Origin: an uncultured SAR116 cluster alpha proteobacterium
GTDB taxonomy: Bacteria; Pseudomonadota; Alphaproteobacteria; Puniceispirillales; Marisalimonadaceae
NCBI GenBank assembly: GCA_902615325.1
Contig: CACMOJ010000001.1
Location: 186,001-250,000, forward strand
DNA: 64,000 nucleotides
Direction: 5' to 3'
In this document: positions 8,869 to 55,731 of the stretch, piece by piece
Layout: every line of letters begins with the position of its first letter
Numbering within the stretch: position 1 is the first letter of the stretch
Position numbers and translations under genes: made by a program
The notes under the pieces: generated by a model
Seen by the model: only the letters and a program-made list of their open reading frames with translations
Databases searched by the model: none
Told to the model about the DNA's origin: nothing

Positions 8869-10254
8869 TTATTTGTTAGATTTTATATTTAACTCTTTTA
8901 TTTTTCTATGTAAAGCTGAACGGTCCATACCAACAAAAGTTGAAGTTTTAGCTATATTACCTTTAAATCTATTTAATTGAGTTTCTAAATATTTTTTTTC
9001 AAATATTTTTCTTGCATCCTTAATTGGCAAATTAAAGTCAAAGTTATACTTGTTTTCATTATTATTATCACTTTTAAATTCAGGTGGCAAATGAGATATA
9101 TCAACTTGGAAATTTTTTTCATTTCCGTACATGATTAATAGCCATTCAATTAAATTTTTTAATTGTCTAACATTACCTTTCCAATCAAAACTTTGCAGCA
9201 AAATATATGTTTCATCAGTAAGAATCAATTTATTTTTATTAAATATCTTTGAAGCCAATTCCATAAATGAATGAATTAAAAAATTAATATCTTCAATTCG
9301 AGAATTCAAAGAGGGGATACTTATAGGCACAACAGATAATCTATAATACAAATCCTCCCTCAAAATACCATTTTTTACTGCTTTGATTGGGTCATAAGTT
9401 GTACCTGCAATTACTCTAATATCAATTTTAATTTTTTTATTCGAACCATATTTATAAAAGCTTTGATCTTGTATTACATTAATTAATTTAGCTTGAGTAT
9501 CGTTGGGAAGATCACAAATTTCATTAAAATAAATTGTACCATTATTTGCTTGTTCAAATAAACTTTTGGTATCCCGTTTATTTTTACTATCATTGAATCC
9601 AAAAAGCAATTGATCAACCATTTGATTGGATAAGCTTGCACAAGCTGCAACTACAAATGGATGATTTGATCTATTTGAAATTGAGTGAATGAAACGAGCA
9701 CAAGTTTCTTTACCTGATCCAGATGGACCAGTTATAAGTATTCTACTGTTACTTTTTGATACTTTTAAACATATATTTTTTATATTTTTTATCTTGGAAG
9801 ATTTTCCTATTAGGTGATTACTTTTAAGCCATTCATTATTTGAATCCATTAATTTAATTTTTAGGTCTCTTTCTTGAAGAGCTTTTTTTACTAAAAATAG
9901 TAATCTGTCAGAGTTAAATGGTTTTTCTAAAAAATCATAAGCACCATTCTTAGCAGCATTCATAGCATATTCGATAGTGCCATGGCCTGACATAATCAGA
10001 ACAGGAGTTAGAGCATTGAAAGCCTTACACCATTCCAACAATTCAAAGCCTTCTTTTTCATTATCATTCATCCATATGTCAGTTATAACGAGTGACATGC
10101 CTGAATTTTCCATAATTTTTATTGCTTCTTGTTTTGAAAATGCACTCTTAACTATGTAACCATTATCACTTAAAACGTCTGATACTAAGTTACAAATATC
10201 AGGTTCATCATCTACAATTAAAATTTTGTTATTTACCATATGTTGATTTATCAA
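8869..10254 (-). CDS. ntrX: Response regulator NtrX, AAA+ type lacking the GAFTGA loop
   Basis: Domains in order are a receiver domain with phospho-acceptor D59 (VITDIWMND), an NtrC-type AAA+ domain with Walker A GPSGSGKE (175-182) and REDLYYRL arginine-finger region, and a Fis-type helix-turn-helix (IAKTSTFVGMDRSALHRKI). The sigma-54 contact loop GAFTGA should lie between LLFGF (215-219) and LFEQA (231-235); the sequence there is NDSKNKRDTKS, with no GAFTGA. Walker B reads YFNEI (241-245), with Asn replacing the first acidic residue. The fold is kept, so this is inferred to be a functional DNA-binding regulator that does not act through sigma-54. It overlaps ntrY by 4 bp; Met6 is an alternative start. 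Confidence 0.93.
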   Translation of the reverse strand: MINQHMVNNKILIVDDEPDICNLVSDVLSDNGYIVKSAFSKQEAIKIMENSGMSLVITDIWMNDNEKEGFELLEWCKAFNALTPVLIMSGHGTIEYAMNAAKNGAYDFLEKPFNSDRLLFLVKKALQERDLKIKLMDSNNEWLKSNHLIGKSSKIKNIKNICLKVSKSNSRILITGPSGSGKETCARFIHSISNRSNHPFVVAACASLSNQMVDQLLFGFNDSKNKRDTKSLFEQANNGTIYFNEICDLPNDTQAKLINVIQDQSFYKYGSNKKIKIDIRVIAGTTYDPIKAVKNGILREDLYYRLSVVPISIPSLNSRIEDINFLIHSFMELASKIFNKNKLILTDETYILLQSFDWKGNVRQLKNLIEWLLIMYGNEKNFQVDISHLPPEFKSDNNNENKYNFDFNLPIKDARKIFEKKYLETQLNRFKGNIAKTSTFVGMDRSALHRKIKELNIKSNK

Positions 10255-12407
10255 TAATTATTAATAGGAAATTTTATTATTACCTTGGTTCCCATATCTG
10301 AAGATTCAATACTAATCTCACCTTTATGATCTTCAATGATTTTTCTGGAAATAGCCAAACCTAAACCAGTACCATTTTTCTTTGTCGTAAAATATGGTTC
10401 TAATACCCTAATTTTATTAACTTCTTTTATACCAAAACCATTATCTTGAATGCTTAATAAAATATGACTTTGATTTTTAATCAATGAAAAAGATATAGTT
10501 TTATTAAGTATGTTATTTTCTTGAAAATTTTCAGATGAATTTTTTATTAAATTACCTATAACTTGTCTTAATTGTTTTTCGTCAGCCTTAATATAAATAA
10601 TTTCTTTATAATTATTTAAATTTTTTTTATCAAACTTAATATCAGGGTAAGATATTTTAAAAAATTTGAAGGTATCTTCTATAAATTTGATATAGTTAAC
10701 TTTTTCTAAAATTGGACTAGGTAAACGAGAAAAAGAAGAAAACTCATCAATTAAATACCTAATGTCATCTACATTTTTTAATATCATTTTGGATGTATTA
10801 ACTAATTTATTATCTGATTTAATTAATGACGAATTAGCTATTCTTTCAGCACCTAACCTAATTGGTGTAAGAGGGTTTTTAATTTCATGTGCTATTTTTC
10901 TAGCTACATCAGACCAGGCAGCTAATTTCTGTGCTTGAATAAGATCAGTAATATCTTCAAATGTAAGTACATATCCTATTATCTGATTTTCGTTAACTTG
11001 TTTAACAATTCTGGAAATCAGAATATGTACCTTATCATTTTTTAAAAATTCAATTTTTTTTTCAACAAAATTATTTTTTTTAAATTTAATTTCATCAATT
11101 AAAATTTGAAATTCAGGAAAAAGTTTTTCAAATTTTTTATTATAATGTTTTGAAATATTAATATCTAAGAGATTTTCAGCAGTTTTGTTTGGTAAATTAA
11201 TCTTAAAACTATTATCTAACCCTATAACTCCAGAGTAGACACCAGACAAAACAGCTTCTGAAAATTGTCTTCTTTGATCTAATTGATCATTAGCTTCAAT
11301 CAATTCAGATCTATTATTCTTAATATCAAGGATCATCTTATTAAAAGCATTACCAAGTTTTTTCAATTCAGTGATTTTATTTTGCAAAAGAGTTTTATTT
11401 TTTATTTTGTAGTTTAAGTTTCCTCTTCCAACCTCTTGCGATGCGTAAATTAACTCAGCAATAGGTGAAATTAATCTGTTAGATAAACTTAAACCTACAT
11501 ACAAGGATATTAGCAATAAAAATAATGATATTAAAAGAAACAAAGCCAAAATTGAAATTTTTGTGTCAAATAAATTTAATTCTATAGACTTATAATCATC
11601 AGAAGCTATATTAGATTTTTTAATAGCCTCTAGAACTTTTTGATCAACAAATCTAGATGTCAACAAATATGCGTCAACAAATTGATCTAACTTTATAAAC
11701 GCATTTACTTTATTTGAATCTTTATCATTTGAAATAATTATTTTTCCATTATTTGCTAAATCATAATATCTATTTGGCAAATCTAGGTAATTAATTTCAA
11801 ATGCATATTGTGATCTTGCTAAGACATTTCTTGAAGTATCAATTAATACAGCATCAGTAAGATTATTTTTGCTAATATAAAAATTTAGAAATTTAGATAT
11901 TTTTTCTTGATTTGATGAAAATGAAATAGCATTAACGTTTAATTGTTTTGCAAACTCTAAAACCTCTCCTTTCATGGCATTTTGATGTTCAATAAGATAT
12001 TTATTAGCTACTTCAACAGATTGAGAAACAGCTGTTGATATTTTTTCACTAAACCATCCTTCTAATGCAGTATTGATAGTAAAAATTGAAAAAGCTGAAA
12101 TAATTATTGATGGCATTAAACAAACAATTGAAAATAATACAGCTAATTTTTTATGTAACTCATAACCTGCGATCTTTAATTTTGCCTGAAAAAAAAGTCT
12201 GTTAATTTGTTTAACAACTTTATAAATAAGAAATATTATTGGAAAAAATATAATAGCAAAAATTATGTAAAAATAAGTTTCTGATAGATTCTTAATATTT
12301 AAATTAATGTTATTTGTAGACAAAACTCCTAAAATCAAAAAAAACAGTGGGATTAAAAATATGTTATTTAGTTTTAAAAAGTTTTTTAAAGGTAAAAGCT
12401 TTTTCAT
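10251..12407 (-). CDS. ntrY: Membrane sensor histidine kinase NtrY
   Basis: NtrY is the kinase partner of NtrX, linked to nitrogen and redox sensing in alphaproteobacteria. The 718 residues show hydrophobic helices at about 13-30, 42-66, 85-108 and 282-310, with a periplasmic segment of roughly 170 residues between the last two. A HAMP linker (about 308-365), a PAS domain (about 380-480), the HisKA H-box with phospho-acceptor H507 in IAHEIKNPLTPI, and a HATPase domain with DNGFGI and GTGLGLAI follow. The architecture and length are typical of NtrY. It starts 28 bp after ntrC and is coupled to ntrX by an ATGA overlap. Confidence 0.95.
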   Translation of the reverse strand: MKKLLPLKNFLKLNNIFLIPLFFLILGVLSTNNINLNIKNLSETYFYIIFAIIFFPIIFLIYKVVKQINRLFFQAKLKIAGYELHKKLAVLFSIVCLMPSIIISAFSIFTINTALEGWFSEKISTAVSQSVEVANKYLIEHQNAMKGEVLEFAKQLNVNAISFSSNQEKISKFLNFYISKNNLTDAVLIDTSRNVLARSQYAFEINYLDLPNRYYDLANNGKIIISNDKDSNKVNAFIKLDQFVDAYLLTSRFVDQKVLEAIKKSNIASDDYKSIELNLFDTKISILALFLLISLFLLLISLYVGLSLSNRLISPIAELIYASQEVGRGNLNYKIKNKTLLQNKITELKKLGNAFNKMILDIKNNRSELIEANDQLDQRRQFSEAVLSGVYSGVIGLDNSFKINLPNKTAENLLDINISKHYNKKFEKLFPEFQILIDEIKFKKNNFVEKKIEFLKNDKVHILISRIVKQVNENQIIGYVLTFEDITDLIQAQKLAAWSDVARKIAHEIKNPLTPIRLGAERIANSSLIKSDNKLVNTSKMILKNVDDIRYLIDEFSSFSRLPSPILEKVNYIKFIEDTFKFFKISYPDIKFDKKNLNNYKEIIYIKADEKQLRQVIGNLIKNSSENFQENNILNKTISFSLIKNQSHILLSIQDNGFGIKEVNKIRVLEPYFTTKKNGTGLGLAISRKIIEDHKGEISIESSDMGTKVIIKFPINNY

Positions 12408-12435: not shown

Positions 12436-13884
12436 TTATAAACTATTTTTTCGAACTTTTCTAACAGTTACACCTAATTCAGATATTTTTTTTCTTAAAG
12501 TATTTCTATTTAATCCTAGTATAGAAGAAGCTTTAATTTGATTGCCTCTAGTGTAAGTTAATACATTTTCGATTAAGGGTTTTTCAATTGTCTTGATAAA
12601 TTCATCATATACATTCATTTCTAATGCATCCTCACTAATGGATGAAATTACTTTATTTATACGTTTATCTAATAAATTTTCTAATGTTATACTTTCTTCA
12701 TTGTCTATCACGTCAAAAGAATTATTCAATTGATCCTTAACATCAGATATAGTTATTTTATTGTTAGTTAATGAAAGTGATAATCTTTCAATTAAATTTT
12801 TTAATTCCTGTATATTTCCTGGCCAGTGATAAGATTTGAGATAATTTAGTGCTAAATCGTCAATAGATAATTCATTCATATTTTTATTATTATAATTATT
12901 AATAAAATGATTAATTAAATTCGGTATATCTTCCAGTCTTTTTCTTAAAGGAGGCAAAAAAATTGGCATTACATTTAACTTATAATATAAGTCTTCTCTA
13001 AAATCTCCCTTTTCGACAAGTTTCATTAAGTCTCTTTTTGAAGTTACAATGATTCTAGTTTGAATAATTTCCTGAGATAATAATCTTTTATTTGAATCAA
13101 AGTTTTCTATGAAATTCAATAATTCATTTTGTTCAATTAATGATCCTTCACACACCTGATCAATGAATATTGTGCCACTTTCTAAGTTTTTAAGGTCATT
13201 AATGTAAAGAGAATTATAATTTTTATTATTCTTAAAATTAGATAGTTCTTCATTTATAATTCTAAAATTTTTGATATTTAGTTTTACAAATTTACTTTTA
13301 CCAGAAAAAGTTAAATCGTGAATAGACTTAGCTAATAATTTTTTTCCAGTTCCAATTTCACCATTTATTAAAACTGTAATGTTGGATTTTATTAATCGTG
13401 CAATTATTTTATATGTATCTTGCATAATTTTAGACTTACCAATTATTGGGCCTGAATCATACAGACTTGGTTTATCTGATATTATATTTTCACCTTCAAC
13501 CAGTTTATTTTTTGTTAACAATTCAGAAGTTTCAAATATTTTATTTACTAAGGCTATTAATTCATCCAAATCAAAAGGTTTAGGAAAATAGTAAAAAGCA
13601 CCCTTTTTTTCAGCTCTTACTGCTGTAAGTAAAGTTGATTTAGCTGAAATTACAATTATTTTCATTTTTGGATTTAAGTTTTGAATTTTTGGTAAAATAT
13701 CTAACGTATCACCGTCAGGAAGGCCAACATCTGTTATCATAACATCAAACTTATCTGAATTTAACAATCCCCAAAAACCAGCGGTTGTAGCACTAGTTTT
13801 AACTAAAAAACCACTTCTAGTGAGTGCAGTTGATAAAACTAATCTAATACTATTATCATCATCTACTACTAAGATTTTTTTCAT
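12436..13884 (-). CDS. ntrC: Response regulator NtrC, AAA+ type lacking the GAFTGA loop
   Basis: The protein has an N-terminal receiver domain with phospho-acceptor D52 (MITDVGLPDG), a degenerate NtrC-type AAA+ domain and a C-terminal Fis-type helix-turn-helix (IKASSILGLNRNTLRKKI). Walker A is preserved as GEIGTGKK (175-182). The stretch where ELFG and GAFTGA should be (about 211-235) has no resemblance to either, and Walker B reads FIDQV (240-244), with Gln in place of the catalytic Glu. The arginine-finger segment REDLYYKL and GNIQELKN are retained. Identity as NtrC rests on its position directly after ntrB (4-bp overlap). It presumably regulates transcription without sigma-54. Confidence 0.9.
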   Translation of the reverse strand: MKKILVVDDDNSIRLVLSTALTRSGFLVKTSATTAGFWGLLNSDKFDVMITDVGLPDGDTLDILPKIQNLNPKMKIIVISAKSTLLTAVRAEKKGAFYYFPKPFDLDELIALVNKIFETSELLTKNKLVEGENIISDKPSLYDSGPIIGKSKIMQDTYKIIARLIKSNITVLINGEIGTGKKLLAKSIHDLTFSGKSKFVKLNIKNFRIINEELSNFKNNKNYNSLYINDLKNLESGTIFIDQVCEGSLIEQNELLNFIENFDSNKRLLSQEIIQTRIIVTSKRDLMKLVEKGDFREDLYYKLNVMPIFLPPLRKRLEDIPNLINHFINNYNNKNMNELSIDDLALNYLKSYHWPGNIQELKNLIERLSLSLTNNKITISDVKDQLNNSFDVIDNEESITLENLLDKRINKVISSISEDALEMNVYDEFIKTIEKPLIENVLTYTRGNQIKASSILGLNRNTLRKKISELGVTVRKVRKNSL

Positions 13885-14951
13885 AATGCTTCCTTAGTTT
13901 TTTTTAATGGAAAATTCAAACAAAAATTGGTAGAACCATTTTCTGAAATAACTTCAATAGAACCACCTAAAGATCTGATAGAATTTGATACAATAGACAA
14001 TCCCAATCCTTTTCCATTTTGTTTTTTAGTTATAAATGGGTCAAATATATTTTGCATGTCAATATTTGAAATCCCTACTCCGAAATCGATGATTTCAACT
14101 TGTAAAGGTTTACTTTCCGGTAAATCATTTTCGTTTAATAAGAACTTTTTGTCAGCATTGTATGAAGTTTTTAAGAGTATTTTTCCTTTATCACTTTGTG
14201 CTTCACATCCGTTTTTAATTAGATTGCTAAAAATTTGTATTAATAATTCTTCATTTGCAAAGAAGTCTGGTAATGATGGGTCATAAATTTCTTCAAAGAA
14301 TATATGACTCCCGTAGCTATTTTTTGCAGAATTTTTACAGTAATTTAATACTTTATGTATATTAAGTGGCTCTAAAATTACATTACCCTCACCTGCAGAT
14401 AAATTTTCCATATTTGATAGCAAATTTTTGATTCTATCAGCTTCAAGTTTTATTAAATTCAACATTTCAACATAATTTGAAGATTGTAAATCTTTTTGTA
14501 ATAGTTGAGTTGCACCAACAATTCCTGAAAGTGGATTCTTCAGTTCATGCATTAACATTTCAACTAAAGAGCTAAAAGATTGGGAAATTTTTGAATTAAT
14601 TTTATGATAAATAAAAGATTGATTTTTTAAATTCTGTTCAAAATGAATTACTATTAAATCCTTTTTTTCAAAAGTATTAAAAATACTCACTTTTAATTGT
14701 TTTTTATTCTGATTTCTTAATGAAAAAACTAATTTATCTTCTTTTAAATTTATGCCGTTTTTGATACTTTTATTTATTAATAAGATAAGTGGTGAGTCTT
14801 CATCTAATATAAAATTTAAATTTTCATTTAAAATAATGTTAGAATTTACATAAAAAATTTCTTCGAATGATGCATTTACATATTTTATTATTTTTTCTTT
14901 GGTGATTACAAGAATTGGATCTATAAAACTATTAAGTATATCATTGAACAT
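13881..14951 (-). CDS. ntrB: Nitrogen-regulation histidine kinase NtrB (GlnL-like)
   Basis: This is a soluble histidine kinase of 356 residues with no membrane helix. It has an N-terminal PAS domain (about 5-110), HisKA with phospho-acceptor H135 in MLMHELKNPLSG, and a HATPase domain with an N-box near IFSNLIKNGCEAQ, DFGVGI and GKGLGLSIV. NtrB normally reads nitrogen status through PII and phosphorylates or dephosphorylates NtrC; no PII gene is visible here. It is the first gene of the minus-strand ntr block, divergent from ispDF across 91 bp. In many alphaproteobacteria dusB lies directly upstream in the same operon; here it is absent. Confidence 0.92.
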   Translation of the reverse strand: MFNDILNSFIDPILVITKEKIIKYVNASFEEIFYVNSNIILNENLNFILDEDSPLILLINKSIKNGINLKEDKLVFSLRNQNKKQLKVSIFNTFEKKDLIVIHFEQNLKNQSFIYHKINSKISQSFSSLVEMLMHELKNPLSGIVGATQLLQKDLQSSNYVEMLNLIKLEADRIKNLLSNMENLSAGEGNVILEPLNIHKVLNYCKNSAKNSYGSHIFFEEIYDPSLPDFFANEELLIQIFSNLIKNGCEAQSDKGKILLKTSYNADKKFLLNENDLPESKPLQVEIIDFGVGISNIDMQNIFDPFITKKQNGKGLGLSIVSNSIRSLGGSIEVISENGSTNFCLNFPLKKTKEAL

Positions 14952-53694: not shown

Positions 53695-55731
53695 TTAACC
53701 ATTAACCTGACTGCATTCAGCCATAGTGCTTGAGCATCTAGAAATAGGACATGTCATAAAAAAATTTTTATTTTCATAATTTAATTTTGAAGATTTAAAG
53801 TCTGATTTTGTAATTATTTTTGGTTCAGAAGAATAAATATTTTCATCAAATTTTAACATTGTTTTTGAACTAAACATGATTTTACGAAGTTGAAGTAAAT
53901 TATCAAAGTCTAGTTTTTTACCTAGCTTTTCTGATAATGCTCTTAAAATCGTCCAATCTTCTTTTGCATCCCCTGGAGGAAAAATTGCTCTTTGAGAATA
54001 TTGTACCCTTCCTTCTAAATTAGTGTAAGACCCTTCTTTTTCAGTGTAAGCAGCACCAGGCAAAATTACATCAGCTAATTGAGCACCTTTATCACCATGA
54101 TGCCCTTGATAAATTACAAAACAATTACTTATATCAAAATCAAAATCATCAGCATTAAGCAAATAAACAAATTTAATTAAATTTTTATTAATATCATTTT
54201 TGAGGGCTGAATAGTCATAGTCAGAATATTCACTTAATATATCAATTGCACCTACTGTACTTGCATAATTATGTAATATATTAAAACCATTCCAGTTTTT
54301 GTTAAATCCACCAAATTTTTTTAAGATAGAAGTAGAAACTTTTTGAACATCTAAACTACAATCATTTTGCAATACTTCATCTCCAATGATTATCATTGGA
54401 AAATTAGCTTTTTCAAAATCATTTGAAATTTTATGTTTTTTTTCTAGAATTGAAGTTAGTATTTTGACATCACAACCAAGATACTCATAATTGAATTTTA
54501 AGTCAAATGGTTGGGATGCAATAGATGATATTTTCAAATCTCTATGAATATAATTTTTTCTAATTCTTGCGTTCAAGATAGCGCTATCAACTCTAGGATT
54601 TGCTCCAATTAAAAGCAAGTAGTCGCATTTATCAAGTCCCTCGATTTTACTGTTAAATAAATAATTTGCTCTATTTTCTTTTGAAAATGATAATTTTTTC
54701 TGAAATGGTAAAATTTTGTTTAAATTAAGTTTTTTAAATAATTCTCTAAAAGCAAATATTGCTTCATTCTCAACTTGATTACCAACAACACCTACACAGT
54801 TTTCATTTGAAATTTTGCTAATTTTAGAATTTATAACTTCAAAAGCTTCATCCCATGAAACTCTTTGCAATTTATTATTTATTTTAACAAAAGGGGTATC
54901 TAAACGTTGTTTTGACAAACCATCAATTGCATATCTTGATTTATCAGATATCCATTCTTCATTAATGCTTTCGTTATTCTTAGGCAATATTCTTAAAACT
55001 TTTCCATCACGACTATCAATTCTTATATTTGAGCCTATAGCATCCATTACATCAACAGATTCTGTTTTTGTTAGTTCCCAAGGTCTAGCAACAAATTGAT
55101 AAGGTTTAGAAGTTAAAGCACCAACAGGGCATAAATCAACTAAGTTTCCTGATAGTTCTGAAGTCACAGCTTTTTCTAGATATGTTGAAATTTCAACATT
55201 TTCTCCTCTTCCTGTTGCTCCTAGATCTTCTACCCCTGCCACTTCATTTGCAAATCTTACACATCTTGTACAATGAATACATCTTGTCATCGTTGTTTTG
55301 ATTAAAGGACCCATATTTTTATCAGAAACTGCTCTTTTAGAATTTTCAAAACGAGTTTCACCTTTGCCAAAATAAAGTGCTTGATCTTGAAGATCACACT
55401 CACCACCTTGATCACAAATTGGACAGTCTAAAGGATGATTAATTAATAGAAATTCCATAACACCTTTCCTAGCCTTTTCAACCATCTCAGAAGATGTTTT
55501 AATAATCATTCCATCAGAGGCTGGCATAGCACACGAAGCTATAGGTTTTGGAGATCTTTCCATTTCGACCAAACACATTCTACAATTGCCTGCCACGGAT
55601 AATTTTTCATGATAACAAAATCTTGGAATTTCAGCACCTGCAGCTTCACATGCTTGTAAAACTGTAGATCCTTGAGGCACTGATATTTCAATACCATCTA
55701 TTATAATATTAATATTTCTTAATTCGTCCAT
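53695..55731 (-). CDS. nuoG: NADH-quinone oxidoreductase subunit G
   Basis: The largest peripheral subunit of complex I. The N-terminal region binds [2Fe-2S] through C39, C50, C53 and C67, then a [4Fe-4S] cluster with H99, C103, C106 and C112, and a further [4Fe-4S] cluster starting C151-x2-C154-x2-C157. The rest is a molybdopterin-oxidoreductase-like domain that has lost its cofactor role, as usual in the family. Length 678 is close to other alphaproteobacterial NuoG. The C-terminus ([11 protein letters not shown]) matches the family end. It lies 20 bp after nuoF. Confidence 0.96.

Follow-up and report, generated by a model that had tools for sequence, protein, structure and literature searches.

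Sigma-54 activators (bEBPs) are marked by a GAFTGA motif in the L1 loop, through which sigma-54 is contacted, and by a Walker B Asp-Glu pair for ATP hydrolysis. According to the available part of one report, Caulobacter crescentus has four regulators of this type: FlbD and TacA carry GAFTGA and work with sigma-54, whereas NtrC and NtrX have no GAFTGA, and the Caulobacter NtrC requires its own Walker A and Walker B residues (PMC10274813). The same portion of text describes the NtrC of Rhodobacter capsulatus as a GAFTGA-less regulator that acts with sigma-70 and requires ATP binding, not hydrolysis (Bowman and Kranz 1998, cited in PMC10274813). For the NtrX of R. sphaeroides, the accessible sections of a further study list six high-confidence sites, of which five belong to cell-envelope genes and the sixth to the operon of NtrX itself, and provide the NtrX motif GCA-N9-TGC (PMC7240162). 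In beta-proteobacteria, NtrX is reported, in the available portion of the source, to lack the AAA+ domain wholly (PMC13001219).

The ntrX gene and its Ntr cluster

The window (the whole stretch of 64,000 nucleotides analyzed here) comes from a SAR116-type alphaproteobacterium and contains the gene order ntrB-ntrC-ntrY-ntrX, followed by an ORF that we take to be TrkA-like (Table 1). The ntrX start codon, TTG, overlaps the ntrY stop. Pfam matches in the NtrX product are PF00072, PF00158, PF25601 and PF02954, and its top NCBIfam match is NF051870 (NtrX) at 488.6 bits, which is below the 600-bit cut-off of that family. The receiver, Walker A and HTH are retained, and the conserved LREDLYYR segment presumably corresponds to the arginine-finger region.

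A sequence-only reading of this locus had described an NtrX without GAFTGA, in which LLFGF and LFEQA flank a NDSKNKRDTKS stretch about three residues shorter than in sigma-54 activators, and in which Walker B has Asn for Asp. Both observations were borne out by alignment. LLFGF occupies residues 216-220, NDSKNKRDTKS residues 221-231 (bases 9594-9562) and LFEQA residues 232-236; the region is three residues shorter than its counterparts in the two activators (GSFTGA and GAFTGA) of the same-genus genome G048. Walker B reads IYFNE, an Asn-Glu in place of the Asp-Glu hallmark; the codon of Asn244 (bases 9525-9523) lies just outside the 9559-9615 interval to which that reading referred. Neither departure is due to chance, since the loop is absent from 19 of 19 NtrX read in the family (as it is from 18 of 18 NtrC) and all 8 NtrX read in the genus carry the Asn. 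With its domain set, ntrY neighbor, place after ntrBC, grouping with other NtrX and lack of the loop, we hold with good confidence that the window NtrX is an ordinary alphaproteobacterial NtrX and a member of a known GAFTGA-less kind.

Table 1. Ntr genes of the window and sequence features of NtrX
Feature	Position	Strand	Description	Evidence
ntrX	8869..10254	(-)	461-aa response regulator ORF: receiver, AAA+, Fis-type HTH	
NtrX HTH	8890..9006	(-)	C-terminal Fis-type HTH	Pfam PF02954, E 8.2e-9
NtrX LREDLYYR segment	9340..9363	(-)	conserved	alignment
NtrX Walker B	9520..9534	(-)	IYFNE: Asn244 for Asp, Glu245 kept	alignments
NtrX L1 region	9562..9594	(-)	NDSKNKRDTKS replacing GAFTGA loop	alignments
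NtrX Walker A	9706..9729	(-)	GPSGSGKE, intact	alignments
ntrY	10251..12407	(-)	cognate histidine kinase	Pfam NtrY_N, HAMP, HisKA, HATPase_c
ntrC	12436..13884	(-)	paralogue without GAFTGA; Walker B FIDQV	Pfam, alignment
ntrB	13881..14951	(-)	histidine kinase	Pfam

Distribution of the loop and of Walker B substitutions

The class sample comprised 153 genomes, of which 132 gave an NtrX-like match (E of 1e-60 or lower) and 120 an rpoN match. The best match was read for 129 of 131 class genomes, the window's own being excluded, and by similarity these were 128 NtrX and one NtrC; G063 and G096 were left out of the reading, and L216, which scored higher to NtrC, was counted as such. Class NtrC were sought in the ~5 kb upstream of NtrX in 100 genomes, and L205 and L206, whose AAA+ domains aligned poorly, were kept in the NtrC count and dropped from the tree. 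GAFTGA or a near variant was found in none of the 128 class NtrX, of which 104 sit in genomes with rpoN (a set that includes one fragment match, in G099) and 24 in genomes without it. By comparison, the loop was present in 55 of 63 class NtrC (53 of 57 with rpoN, 2 of 6 without). Lack of the loop is a class-wide trait of NtrX, but among NtrC it is confined to scattered, local cases. Because no class NtrX read has the loop, its absence is no sign of sigma-54 loss, and a tempting inference is thereby corrected: a GAFTGA-less NtrX says nothing on whether sigma-54 was lost. The proposed tie between loop loss and sigma-54 loss fails on the 104 loop-less NtrX found alongside rpoN, and on 17 of the 19 NtrX read in the window's family, which are likewise in genomes with rpoN. 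NtrC loop absence does track rpoN absence across the class, with loop-less NtrC in 4 of 6 rpoN-lacking versus 4 of 57 rpoN-bearing genomes (Fisher p 0.0016, kinship ignored), but it does not do so in the window's family.

A quick maximum-likelihood tree of 83 rows (36 of the 128 class NtrX, 31 of the 63 class NtrC, 7 of 19 NtrX and 7 of 18 NtrC from the family, and a loop-bearing activator pair of G048) placed NtrC and the loop-bearing pair together, apart from NtrX, with an SH-aLRT of 100. The window family's NtrX and NtrC each formed one clade, again with support of 100. This split and the loop counts uphold the earlier proposal that the loop was lost separately in the two paralogues; the sequences that flank the missing loop in NtrC and NtrX also differ in the alignment, as had been noted. 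Two NtrC (L154 and L169), encoded by two genomes of one family that both lack rpoN, are likewise loop-less and fall beside the window family's NtrC with support of 98, a position that possibly reflects long branches and skewed composition. Beyond the class, a search of 199 phylum genomes returned 20 non-alphaproteobacterial NtrX-like matches (L334-L353), of which 2 have GAFTGA, 5 have GAFPGA and 13 have neither motif, a spread resembling snapshots of a gradual loss of the loop.

Walker B has a narrower pattern. The Asn-Glu of the genus recurs in the single NtrX read from genus 2, and Asp-Glu is kept in all 10 read from genera 3 and 4. In NtrC the pair is Asp-Gln in each of the 8 genus members read, and it differs once more in genera 2 to 4. 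Class-wide, 22 of 128 NtrX lack Asp-Glu, three of these having Asn-Glu. Departure from Asp-Glu in NtrX is commoner in genomes without rpoN (9 of 24) than in those with it (13 of 104; Fisher p 0.007, kinship ignored), and decay of the NtrX AAA+ domain may follow sigma-54 loss in other lineages. Changes of such kind in the Walker B pair of AAA+ proteins usually block hydrolysis and spare ATP binding. Substitution in both paralogues of the genus (D to N in NtrX, E to Q in NtrC) is a slightly unusual trait.

Sigma-54 in the source genome and its predicted activators

The sequence-only reading attributed the missing loops to loss of sigma-54 from the genome. A profile search contradicts this, with a PF04552 match at C10:12041-12517 (E 1.9e-62) in a full-length RpoN of 492 aa that has all three Pfam domains (activator-interacting AID, core-binding CBD and DNA-binding DBD). 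The gene lies inside a flagellar cluster on contig C10, with a MotA/ExbB neighbor by Pfam and further neighbors that, from sequence, we take to be FliM-, FliN-, FliP-, FliR- and FlhB-like. Introduction of rpoN on a foreign, contaminating contig is argued against by synteny (the first 20 kb of C10 are collinear with G048:C1), by G+C content (28.5% in those 20 kb, 28.0% in the window) and by the 82-86% identity of this RpoN to that of the eight same-genus genomes compared. Within the family, rpoN was found in 42 of 58 genomes, many of them incomplete, and in 6 of 6 with completeness of 90% or more and contamination of 5% or less. In both genus-3 genomes, a short, stop-interrupted second match to the RpoN C-terminus lies beside rpoN (G004:C9:58392-58532 and G005:C65:12375-12500).

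The exact -24/-12 pattern TGGCAC-N5-TTGC gave 32 matches in 13 of 13 genus genomes versus one for the reversed pattern used as control. Twenty of the 32 exact loci were read. Seven sites fall outside long frames, with a start codon 38-39 nt downstream, five of them preceding an ORF without a Pfam match that we assume, by position, to be FliO-like, and two preceding another ORF, presumably flagellar as well. Six loci represent one repeated motif inside a frame of 552-554 aa, and in three others, situated outside long frames, no downstream ORF was found. Given this in-frame motif, the ORF-less sites and a control that is blind to codon usage, matches as such were not counted as promoters. The source genome has two exact matches, neither of them in front of a flagellar gene: the first falls within a gene, and no ORF was found downstream of the other. 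With one mismatch allowed, this genome gave 63 matches versus 7 for the reversed pattern. Among 30 exact or one-mismatch loci read in this genome, seven precede flagellar-type genes, each with one mismatch. By family matches, these sites are 147 nt before a FliS-like gene, 43 nt before flagellin, 42 nt before a rod protein, 97 nt before FlhA and 26 nt before a FlgE/F/G-like gene; another is 60 nt before a FlgL-like flagellin-domain protein, within the end of the upstream frame, and the last is 49 nt before an ORF that we take to be FlgG-like. An eighth flagellar site lies 38 nt before the FliO-like ORF on C10, and the remaining loci of the 30 fall within genes, precede other genes or have nothing recognizable downstream. 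No site with at most one mismatch occurs upstream of ntrB, and the window's sole -24/-12-like match, at 55237, falls within a frame.

The 82%-complete assembly of the source genome yielded no loop-bearing activator; its PF00158 matches below 1e-10 are NtrX and NtrC only, and three weaker ones are shared by two longer frames (contigs C5 and C8). Relatives display extra PF00158 matches above 200 bits, mostly as a divergent pair. All 30 activator loci read in them (L036-L065) contain a loop-bearing frame; a second one is present in 28, as GSFTGA plus GAFTGA in 27 cases and GAFTGA twice in one. Members of the G048 pair score 228 and 222 bits to PF00158 and show no Pfam receiver match (e.g. locus L057:934-3432); the top NCBIfam match of one is Caulobacter FlbD, far below cut-off. 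The pair is located at G048:C1:2295-3929, and the left end of C10 in the source genome corresponds to ~G048:C1:11,590, a layout that puts the expected pair ~8-9 kb beyond that end. A pair-to-rpoN spacing of ~20 kb is also seen in G050 and G053. Absence of the pair from the assembly is therefore best explained by the end of contig C10, and from the relatives we infer its presence in the genome. Judging from these sites and loci, sigma-54 most likely serves flagellar genes via two other, loop-bearing activators.

Against this background, loss of sigma-54 with retention of NtrX and NtrC for sigma-54-independent control has next to no probability. The two loop-less paralogues, an assembly devoid of a loop-bearing activator and the class-wide association of loop-less NtrC with missing rpoN would all suit it, but the genome has its own full-length rpoN, as do most family genomes, loop-less NtrX is the rule in rpoN-bearing genomes of the class, and -24/-12-like sites stand before flagellar genes. 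Control independent of sigma-54 survives from this proposal as the likely mode of action; sigma-54 loss as its cause does not, with rpoN present. A different arrangement, in which rpoN was kept although the species is devoid of loop-bearing activators, and sigma-54 is driven by NtrX or NtrC independently of the loop, would agree with NtrX and NtrC being the only strong PF00158 matches of the assembly, but is improbable in view of the pair expected just past the C10 end and the similar rpoN spacing in relatives.

A decaying, non-functional NtrX is more improbable still. Such a remnant could be expected to miss the loop and the Walker B Asp, but the ratio of mean dN to mean dS over 28 genus pairs is 0.062 for NtrX (0.137 for NtrC), identity within the genus is 87-90%, and none of receiver, Walker A and HTH has been lost. 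The low ratio shows NtrX to be under purifying selection.

Predicted function and comparison with known systems

As an ordinary GAFTGA-less NtrX, the protein would be a phosphorylation-switched, DNA-binding regulator, and its control is most likely exerted at sigma-70-type promoters. With Walker A intact, the AAA+ domain probably binds ATP yet hydrolyzes it poorly owing to the Walker B Asn, and would serve assembly rather than the remodeling of sigma-54 polymerase. It is possible, and we propose it tentatively, that NtrX and NtrC of the genus are naturally ATP-locked and regulate sigma-70 promoters, having taken this second step once the loop was gone, with sigma-54 narrowed to the flagellum. 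Whether the two proteins require ATP for nothing more than binding is a question to which the fixed Walker B substitutions lend themselves. More generally, the data suggest a division of labor in streamlined marine bacteria, where Ntr regulators operate without the sigma-54-contact loop and sigma-54 is kept apparently for the flagellum.

Several known systems can be set beside this locus. The best PDB match of NtrX is chain 5m7n, full-length with E 2.1e-102. This protein (5m7n/5m7o/5m7p, deposited as nitrogen assimilation regulatory protein and, we assume, the Brucella NtrX) is also without GAFTGA, but keeps the Walker B Asp (YLDE) that is Asn in the window NtrX. The NtrYX of R. sphaeroides, as far as the available part of PMC7240162 describes it, is of the same class. 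Its motif GCA-N9-TGC, a weak one, was searched for in front of mraZ, a gene located in 10 of 13 genus genomes, and none of these 10 loci had it within 300 nt; nor did it occur in the 300 nt upstream of ntrY or in the 92-nt ntrB-ispDF gap. The R. capsulatus NtrC, in the account given by the available portion of PMC10274813, shares the lack of GAFTGA; it is an NtrC, whereas the window case is an NtrX, to which its mechanism may extend. Caulobacter, in the same portion, likewise has NtrC and NtrX without GAFTGA in a sigma-54 genome, the activator pair of the source genome being predicted from relatives. Unlike in Caulobacter, the Walker B of both paralogues is altered throughout the window's genus.
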